From Natronococcus sp. A-GB1 (GTDB lineage Archaea; Halobacteriota; Halobacteria; Halobacteriales; Natrialbaceae): 64,000 bases of DNA. Position numbers and translations under genes: made by a program. Under the pieces are notes generated by a model that worked only from the letters and a program-made list of their open reading frames with translations, made no database searches and was not told the DNA's origin. The DNA lies in contig NZ_JARUKW010000007.1 in the NCBI RefSeq assembly GCF_029688845.1, positions 124,001-188,000 on the forward strand, given 5' to 3'. Within the stretch, counting starts at the first letter, position 1; every line of letters begins with the position of its first letter. Positions 1,173-28,179 of this stretch are shown here, piece after piece.

Positions 1173-1257
1173 GCCGAGATAGCCTAGCCCGGCCAAGGCG
1201 GCAGATTCGAAATCTGCTGTCCTCACGGACTCGGGAGTTCAAATCTCCCTCTCGGCG
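1173..1257 (+). tRNA. tRNA-Ser (anticodon CGA)
   Basis: An 85-nt class II tRNA cloverleaf can be drawn by eye. Acceptor stem GCCGAGA (1173-1179) pairs with TCTCGGC (1250-1256), with discriminator G at 1257. Anticodon stem GCAGA/TCTGC encloses the loop TTCGAAA, giving anticodon CGA (reads UCG, serine). A long variable arm is present, and the T stem GGGAG/CTCCC encloses TTCAAAT. No CCA is encoded, as is common in archaea. The 3' end is copied again downstream. Confidence 0.95.
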
Positions 1258-1620
1258 CTTTTGCAGCGACCACAACCGACGAGCGACGCGTAGCGGCGCG
1301 AGTCATCTGGTCGCTGTAAACGACGTCAGAGATTTGAATTAGACCGAGGTTCTGCGCTTCGCGCAGGTTCTCGGGCGTAGTTCAAATCTCCCTCTCGGCG
1401 CTTTTGAAGCAACAACCCCGTGAGCGACGCGTAGCGGCGCGAACTACTCGTTGCTGCAAAGCGACGACGGAATTTGAACTAGAGAGTGAAGCGAGCGCCG
1501 CGAGCGAAACGACCGTGGTTCAAATCTCCCTCTCGGCGCTTTTCAGCAGCACAGAAACGACATTGGGGAGTTTGAACCAGGGAGTGACGCGAGCGGAATT
1601 TCTGTGGTTCAACTCGCGCT
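1238..1620 (+). repeat. Tandem tRNA-Ser 3'-end repeats with interposed hairpins
   Basis: The last 20 nt of tRNA-Ser plus the following bases (a 25-bp block starting TTCAAATCTCCC) occur at 1238-1262, 1381-1405 and 1519-1543. A degenerate TTCAA copy lies near 1612. A 21-bp block beginning GAGCGACGCGTAGC occurs at 1281-1301 and 1422-1442. After each copy an inverted repeat can be drawn whose arms differ in sequence: CAGCGACCA/TGGTCGCTG, AGCAAC/GTTGCT and CACAGAAA/TTTCTGTG. This looks like repeated recombination at the tRNA 3' end. The stretch contains no convincing gene. Confidence 0.8.
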
Positions 1621-6205: not shown

Positions 6206-6448
6206 GAAGGAAGGGTTATTTCCGCCCTGGAATTTCGCGCCCAGCCGGGTTGCCCCGACTTCCTCTATCCTCGGACTCCGGCGTTGAGAACGAATCTCGT
6301 GCCATCGTATCCCGACCTATTCGGACGGGACGACTTAACCTCGCCGGTCACGGCACCATCTGCATCCATTAACGAACTGTCACATCGGCGTCGGTGTTCG
6401 ACGCGAGGGACCCCAACGACCATCGGGGAGCCCAGCGTAGCCCACGGC

Positions 6449-9544: not shown

Positions 9545-10408
9545 GTGCGATCGATCGTGTTGACGAAAGGCGTACCGGACTTCTCGGAGGGCGCGGTCTC
9601 CTTCGACGAGGACGGCCACCTGGAACGGGGGAAGACGCCGACGGTGATGAACCCCAACGACGCGTTCGCGCTCGAGGCGGCACTCCAGACTCGAGTCCGC
9701 CACGGGGGTCACGTCAGCGGGATGAGCATGGGGCCGCCCGGCTACGCCGAGGTGCTCGAGGGGGCGATGGAGTCGGTATACACCGACGACAGCTACCTGC
9801 TCTCCGACCGGGAGCTCGCGGCCTCCGACACGTGGGCGACGGCGATCACCGTCAGCTCGGGGATCGAGAAGTACCGCGAGGAGGTCGCCGACGTCGACCT
9901 CGTCTTCGCGGGGTTCAAAACCGCTGACGGAGAGACCGGTCAGACCGGGCCCCAGACGTGCTGGGCCCTCGAGTGGCCGATCGTCACCCACGTCATCGCG
10001 CTGGATATCGACCCCGACGAACGCCGACTCCGCGCGAAGCGACTCGTCGAGGGCGACGTCGACGAGATCGAAACCGTCGAGGCGCCCCTGCCATGTATGG
10101 TCGTCACCGATCCGGAGTTCGAGCCCACCTATCGGAAGGCTGCCCACAGGCTGACCCACAAACGGCTTCGGGCGGAGACACAAGAGCGGGCCGCCGAGCA
10201 CGACGAGCACCTGACGACGTGGGATCACGCCGATCTCAATCTCGATCCAGACTACATCGGGCTCGACGGCTCGCCGACGATCGTCTCCTCGGTCGACCCG
10301 ATCCCGAAGGCGCCCTCCGAGCGGGAGGCGACGATGATCGACCCCGACGACGGCGCGGCGATGGAGCCCGTCCTCGAGGAACTGCAACCGTTTGCGGGAG
10401 GTGACTGA
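9545..10408 (+). CDS. fixA: Electron transfer flavoprotein beta subunit (FixA/EtfB)
   Basis: 287 residues from GTG 9545. The sequence begins VRSIVLTKGVPDF and continues with PTVMNPNDAFALEAAL, GGHVSGMSMGPP, and the ETF-beta signature region VFAGFKTADGETGQTGPQ with the AMP/FAD contact. It pairs with the alpha subunit in the next gene to form a heterodimeric FAD protein that passes electrons from dehydrogenases to FixC. It is the first gene of a four-gene operon (2-bp gap to etfA, then overlaps). In haloarchaea this Fix-type set probably links NADH or acyl-CoA oxidation to menaquinone and ferredoxin; the bifurcating role is inferred from the FixABCX layout. Confidence 0.92.
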   Translation: MRSIVLTKGVPDFSEGAVSFDEDGHLERGKTPTVMNPNDAFALEAALQTRVRHGGHVSGMSMGPPGYAEVLEGAMESVYTDDSYLLSDRELAASDTWATAITVSSGIEKYREEVADVDLVFAGFKTADGETGQTGPQTCWALEWPIVTHVIALDIDPDERRLRAKRLVEGDVDEIETVEAPLPCMVVTDPEFEPTYRKAAHRLTHKRLRAETQERAAEHDEHLTTWDHADLNLDPDYIGLDGSPTIVSSVDPIPKAPSEREATMIDPDDGAAMEPVLEELQPFAGGD

Positions 10409-27972: not shown

Positions 27973-28057
27973 GCGCGGGTAGCCAAGCCAGGCCAACGGC
28001 GCAGCGCTTAGGACGCTGTCCCGTAGGGGTCCGCCGGTTCGAATCCGGTCCCGCGCA
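27973..28057 (+). tRNA. tRNA-Leu (anticodon TAG)
   Basis: An 85-nt class II tRNA. Acceptor GCGCGGG (27973-27979) pairs with CCCGCGC (28050-28056), discriminator A 28057. Anticodon stem CAGCG/CGCTG encloses CTTAGGA, giving UAG (reads CUA). The long variable arm is TGTCCCGTAGGGGTCC. T stem GCCGG/CCGGT-type encloses TTCGAAT. The last 60 nt reappear at 30074-30133, which makes this the integration target of the island. Confidence 0.96.
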
Positions 28058-28172
28058 TTGCTGTCGCGAGCAAACTCGCGAGCGACAGCAATCGTACGGC
28101 CGGTTCGAATCAGGGAGTGGCGCGAACGAAGTGAGCAGAACGACCGTGGTTCGAATCCGGTCCCGCGCATTG
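28034..28172 (+). repeat. tRNA-Leu 3'-end duplication with hairpin
   Basis: GGTTCGAATCCGGTCCCGCG plus CATTG ends the tRNA and recurs at 28148-28172. Between them lies a perfect 11-bp inverted repeat, ATTGCTGTCGC (28057-28067) and GCGACAGCAAT (28082-28092), and a partial TTCGAAT copy near 28106. The spacer includes GGGAGTG and ACGACCGTGGTTC, also present in the tRNA-Ser repeats at 1.2-1.6 kb, so the two loci share one repeat architecture. Confidence 0.78.
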
Positions 28173-28179
28173 AGGTCCT

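Follow-up and report, generated by a model that had tools for sequence, protein, structure and literature searches.

Hairpin cassettes behind haloarchaeal tRNA genes resemble undescribed, recombining DNA without cargo genes

We found that the 3' sides of many haloarchaeal tRNA genes carry hairpin cassettes that form a single, tRNA-linked family, and the existence of this family is well supported. The cassettes look like apparently undescribed, recombining DNA without genes, and not like an ordinary terminator; the mechanism by which they recombine can be proposed tentatively. From the arrangement of their sequences we suggest that gene-less units of about 90-160 bp may build up in arrays at tRNA 3' ends and recombine through a folded strand, much as integron cassettes do, a reading that we hold as a real possibility somewhat short of an even chance. 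No earlier description of such cassettes was found in Rfam or in the largely non-subscription literature searched, and a feature that lies behind a large share of haloarchaeal tRNA genes seems to have gone undescribed until now.

Cassette design at the Ser and Leu loci and beyond

The analysed window (64,000 nucleotides of contig C55) is part of a 4.5-Mb haloarchaeal genome. It includes a tRNA-Ser(CGA) gene at 1173-1258 and a tRNA-Leu(TAG) gene at 27973-28057, each identified by ARAGORN and Rfam RF00005; both genes and their cassettes are on the + strand. A sequence-only reading of the window had proposed that the tRNA-Ser 3' end is present three times, and we confirmed this: the copied segment, which is the 3' end from G53 (1237), begins again at 1380 and 1518, a spacing of 143 and 138, and sequence comparison placed the first and second downstream copies at 1380-1401 and 1518-1539. 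The same reading had described inverted repeats after these copies, with arms that differ from copy to copy and still pair. All of these arms were located, and folding of the Ser region beats 100 of 100 dinucleotide shuffles (z -5.1). What had been overlooked is that every unit contains, besides this hairpin (H1), a second one (H2).

Ser unit 1 begins with an H1 at 1259-1320, whose outer arms, CAGCGACCA (1264-1272) and TGGTCGCTG (1308-1316), pair perfectly and enclose an inner stem that has tandem GA and is capped by a GTA triloop. Its H2 (1328-1391) is of loop type C and was matched by the covariance model (CM) at C55:125327-125392, or 1327-1392 of the window. This hairpin consists of an antisense T-arm, GAGATTTGAATTA, an inner stem, CCGAG/CTCGG, and a T-arm, TAGTTCAAATCTC, and its left arm GAGATTTGAA (1329-1338) pairs with its right arm TTCAAATCTC (1381-1390). 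In Ser unit 2, the H1 (1402-1460) pairs AGCAAC (1408-1413) with GTTGCT (1450-1455) around the core GAGCGACGCGTAGCGGCGCGA also present in unit 1, and the H2 (1467-1530, loop type B, CM match 1467-1530) runs from GGAATTTGAACTA to TGGTTCAAATCTCC. The array ends in a decayed distal unit at 1540-1619, made up of a short H1 remnant, a truncated type-B H2 and a degenerate tail copy. Its arms are CACAGAAA (1550-1557) and TTTCTGTG (1599-1606), with GGAGTTTGAACCA (1567-1579) and TGGTTCAACTC (1605-1615) as the arms of the truncated H2.

The tRNA-Leu gene proved to have the same design, as had been proposed for it. A perfect 11-bp stem, ATTGCTGTCGC (28057-28067) with GCGACAGCAAT (28082-28092), forms an H1 at 28057-28092 with a tandem-GA tip. 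It is followed by a type-B H2 at 28098-28162 (CM match C55:152098-152162, the same interval in the window) that joins the antisense T-arm CCGGTTCGAATCA to a T-arm copy, and by a further copy of the tRNA 3' end at 28148-28177, placed by sequence comparison. When the whole window was searched with the Rfam 15 covariance models, only the two tRNAs and a leuA-Halobacteria match exceeded the gathering score, and no cassette did. The latter match is a cis-regulatory RNA (RF03001) at 6227-6279 on the - strand, with 68.6 bits.

Downstream of tRNA genes in general, a T-rich stretch usually comes first, then H1, then some 10-20 bases of spacer, and then H2. Units are about 86-160 bp long, contain hairpins alone and no genes, and each have a direct repeat of the tRNA 3' end on either side. 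In H2, an antisense version of the adjoining tRNA's T-arm forms the left arm, the beginning of the tRNA 3'-end copy (G53 to about 73) forms the right arm, and a loop of one among a handful of types lies in the centre. For instance, the H2 antisense arm pairs with the T-arm as GAGAATCGAAC with GTTCGATTCTC downstream of tRNA-His, and as AGGACTCGAGC with GTTCGAGTCCT downstream of tRNA-Asn. The tail copy matches its own tRNA at 15.1 of 19 bases and other tRNAs at 11.7, and the H2 antisense arm matches its own tRNA at 9.5 of 13 bases and others at 8.8. Like the tRNA itself, tail copies commonly have a T-rich stretch after them. Behind tRNA-Pro(GGG) (L057, about 9917-10060), it is the acceptor end (TGGGA.../GGTCCCA), and not the T-arm, that the H2 arms match; the general rule is therefore that the hairpin before a tail copy folds back on the start of that copy. 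An extra base bulges from the right arm alone in 55 units, versus the left arm alone in 16, and this right-arm base may reflect inheritance within unit families.

Distribution and array behaviour

By a strict rule, 28 of the 45 tRNA genes in the genome of the window are followed by at least one unit, a count that hinges on the distance rule. The H2 covariance model (R1), which was trained partly on units that it then finds and whose E-values are rough, gave about 30 strong places in this genome, nearly all of them on the tRNA strand directly 3' of a tRNA. In three further genomes, 58 of 134 tRNAs had a match to this model, and 84 of the 94 matches lay downstream of a tRNA on its strand, at a distance of 32-539 bp. 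Among the ten matches found elsewhere, at least seven had been displaced by an integrated element or were part of a displaced tail, and two lie behind tRNA-Pro genes missed by the tRNA model. The sequence-only reading had staked its case on similar modules recurring, and they do so after many other tRNAs and in relatives across the haloarchaea.

Of 247 genomes sampled from the phylum, 47, all haloarchaeal, gave matches to the H2 model; the roughly 199 genomes listed from other orders gave none. Named genomes with matches include those of Haloferax, Halorubrum, Halosimplex, Natronomonas, Natronorubrum, Natrinema, Halobacterium, Halovenus, Halorutilus, and Salinigranum. A search of Haloquadratum walsbyi J07HQW2 with the model gave no match, and neither did the haloarchaeal genome G143 of the 247-genome sample. 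We read 30 tRNA loci in G143, which is Haloquadratum-like (47% GC), and found zero units behind them; the modules are therefore dispensable for tRNA genes.

Arrays of one to four strict units were present behind 31 of 42 tRNA-Ser(CGA) loci. The genome of the window and its congener G003 (L069) both keep the decayed distal Ser unit, with its tail and flank, and differ in their proximal units. H1 and H2 exchange independently: at L127, L136, and L138 one H1 is combined with different H2s, and the reverse. No inverted segments were seen in the arrays. The mean difference between tail copy and tRNA is 0.12 for the first copy and 0.92 for the last, and among arrays defined strictly, 14 have a last copy worse than their first and 1 has a better one (26 versus 2 in a looser set). 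This decay gradient of 14 versus 1 accords with entry of new units at the anchor, and gene conversion could mimic it. Distal decay and segment exchange could both come from plain homologous recombination or gene conversion with the tRNA, and a constant orientation relative to tRNA transcription would be expected of an RNA element too.

Some single loci show further features. Degraded units recur across a span of 2.3 kb behind a tRNA-Tyr gene (G000:C7:17535-19895), with one of them lying 2.2 kb from the tRNA. Two tRNA-Thr(GGT) copies in L006 (1501-1815) lie a few hundred bases apart without units, and a C run follows one of them. Behind tRNA-Pro(TGG) (L016, about 1210-1310), the H2 loop contains a small palindromic insert with the ends TATAGTA...TACTATAG, probably a MITE or PATE that landed in the module.

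Arm covariation and a proposed folded strand

If the arms of these hairpins change in a compensatory manner, as had been suggested from the Ser copies, paired double changes should exceed those in controls, and they do. Seventeen units of the H1 type seen most often behind tRNA-Ser show pairing in 89% of cells. Double-changed cells number 30 in H1, versus 11.7 in shuffles (0 of 500 reach 30) and 1-8 in slid-partner controls, and 73 in H2, versus 27 in shuffles (0 of 500 reach 73), all of these being counts from related sequences and not of independent events. Recurring H1 arm types include CAGCGAC/GTCGCTG, CAGCAAC/GTTGCTG, and CGGCGAC/GTCGCCG. The sequence-only reading had taken such changes as a sign of selection for structure. 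The arms do covary, but selection is unproven, since template switching, by correcting palindromes, could also maintain the pairing.

The tips of the hairpins distinguish the two strands. With a strict tip defined as a stem, tandem GA, two pairs, and a loop, 54 of 84 units have one on the sense (tRNA) strand, while none of the 84 has one on the antisense strand and none arose in shuffles. Three-base loops, mostly GNA, cap 53 of 71 tips; a GNA loop with a G-C closing pair makes an extraordinarily stable DNA mini-hairpin (PMC4686876). Long-stemmed tips occur behind tRNAs (8 in 23 kb) at about six times the density that they have elsewhere (23 in 430 kb). Because strong tips are this rare away from tRNA tails, we rejected the explanation that the cassettes are merely an instance of a genome-wide "haloarchaeal hairpin".

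We propose that the strand carrying the tRNA sequence would fold as single-stranded DNA. Pairing of the antisense T-arm with the T-arm would then rebuild a double-stranded tRNA 3' site, often with an extra base on its right arm. A putative recombinase, or the homologous-recombination machinery, could recombine the folded unit with the actual 3' end of the tRNA, and each exchange would add a new unit on the tRNA side. This idea would account at once for the match between antisense arm and tRNA, the confinement of good tips to one strand, the polarity of the arrays, and the shuffling of units. The more specific proposal, that haloarchaea run an integron-like tRNA system in which a putative recombinase of the host or of an element exchanges folded cassettes and thereby keeps polar arrays behind the majority of tRNA genes, we regard as unlikely. 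Should the folded-strand model be true, the cassettes would belong to a recombination system that uses tRNA genes as its anchor, which might help to explain the preference of integration for tRNA 3' ends.

In integrons, the attC site folds from one strand, and recombination of attC with attI builds the cassette arrays. The process proposed here would be analogous, but would act on tRNA genes and be cargo-free. Common to both are units in one orientation, a structure kept more than its sequence, a bias in extra-helical bases, the freshest copies next to the anchor site, and a site folded from a single strand, which is judged here by sequence, from the tips (54 of 84 sense, 0 antisense) and the covarying arms. 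Unlike integron arrays, in which a cassette consists of an ORF plus attC, the cassettes have no cargo genes, use a tRNA gene as anchor, and carry two hairpins in each unit of about 90-160 bp.

The cassettes can also be compared with other families of small palindromic elements. PATEs and palindromic elements of the IS200-IS605 type occur in haloarchaea (PMC3119063), and they too are small and gene-less, with palindromes near their ends and one strand that folds. The cassettes, unlike these elements, are bound to tRNA genes and flanked by tRNA tail repeats of at least 18 bases; whereas such elements are marked by a short fixed target that is not duplicated, direct repeats of the tRNA 3' end border the units. 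REP elements and mitochondrial repetitive or double hairpin elements are scattered and intergenic (PMC3733652, PMC2800124). They share with the cassettes short GC-rich hairpins that spread and are sometimes paired, but the cassettes differ in having arms that match the neighbouring tRNA and a tRNA-specific placement.

Neutral, RNA and integrase explanations

The strongest rival to the folded-strand model is neutral palindrome dynamics, with an RNA role third. In the neutral account, which we consider doubtful, integrative elements left the first tail copies, GC-rich hairpins entered these copies at the T-arm, and the arms stay matched through template switching (quasi-palindrome correction) together with gene conversion, with no dedicated recombinase and no function. 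The attR copies of tRNA-Phe/Tyr that lie beside SNJ2-type integrases speak for it: the sequence CTGTCCCCG|GTTCAAATCC is uninterrupted in L164, L168-L175, L181, and L184, whereas in L178, L180, L157, and L159 a double hairpin splits it exactly, between positions 52 and 53. This is the nearest we have to an empty-and-filled comparison. The account is likewise consistent with L145, in which a tRNA-Phe copy is seen once with the T-stem 5' strand and again with the antisense T-arm, and with the mismatches in H1, where G-U and A-C are roughly symmetric (17 versus 30 in one count, 13 versus 8 in another), as expected for correction at the DNA level. By itself, however, it leaves unaccounted for both the few loop types that recur at many tRNAs and families and the tandem-GA/GNA tips on one strand. 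Even if palindrome dynamics were all that is involved, the cassettes would offer a clear natural example of hairpin arms that have followed the gene beside them through deep time, and would caution against taking covariation by itself as proof of a functional RNA.

A structured RNA derived from the transcript of the tRNA, be it a terminator, a 3'-processing signal, or a trailer-derived small RNA, is unlikely. It would fit the constant orientation with the tRNA, the covariation of the arms, the T-rich stretch that tail copies commonly share with the tRNA, and the better folding of the sense strand in 29 of 36 units from the genome of the window; the energy difference between strands was dropped as proof of RNA because tandem-GA mismatches bias the energies. 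In H2, G-U outnumbers A-C mismatches by 87 to 32 (10 to 6 on alignment A1), so that H2 leans to G-U in one count and leaves room for an RNA role. Overall, however, G-U pairs are not in clear excess on the sense strand (92 of 1488, versus 101 of 1492 antisense, in the units of this genome; 136 versus 178 in relatives), the triloops are of the DNA-stable GNA type, and none of the Rfam families matches. T-rich stretches also precede H1, where much transcription would be expected to end, and no modules follow the G143 tRNAs inspected or were detected in Haloquadratum walsbyi.

The sequence-only reading had offered three functions for the hairpins. Recombination ends of an element that targets tRNA 3' ends fit best, because segments shuffle, arrays are polar, and the tRNA tail is directly repeated. 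A terminator or a processing signal fits worse, because G-U shows no consistent excess over A-C mismatches, the GNA loops are of a DNA type, and the modules are absent from the tRNAs inspected in G143.

SNJ2-type integrases target the same tRNA tails as the modules and are confined to Halobacteria (PMC8371274), as the modules are. The attachment repeats of these elements resemble the arrays in being direct repeats of a tRNA 3' end behind an intact tRNA, in the same host group; they differ in that modules lie beyond the attR core, and H1 and H2 are missing from the att arms of the element itself. The genome of the window has three elements with such integrases, at tRNA-Arg(TCG) (L015/L088, G000:C10), tRNA-Arg(CCG) (L120, C5), and tRNA-Val(CAC) (L122, C8), each inserted between the tRNA and its displaced module. 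The end of the L122 element has a similar hairpin beside its core. We considered and rejected an integrase attP carrying H2 in contig C10: the module beyond the 13-bp core CCTGCAGCGCCCA is a resident displaced by the SNJ2-type insertion. Scanning genomes with a four-member alignment of SNJ2-type integrases as query gave 80 loci, in which most readable attR cores have no H2 on the element side, and the 25 CM matches lie mainly beyond the core, as displaced residents. The left ends of elements adjoining the tRNA have no H1. No CM match was obtained in the sequences of SNJ2, Halfgib1, pHK2, HHPV4, and LSV-48N; three loop patterns gave three chance matches and no module in 2.9 million viral contigs; and BLAST gave nothing in phage records and two weak matches in plasmid records. 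That the cassettes are scars of SNJ2-type (pleolipovirus or plasmid) integrations, with H1 and H2 as the arms of old attP sites, is thus largely refuted and very improbable, because SNJ2-type attachment sites have neither H1 nor H2.

Longer tRNA copies, which start from the anticodon or the variable arm, are split at 52/53 in L145, L157, L158, L159, L178, and L180. The double hairpins that split them have GNA tips, and related loci are unsplit.
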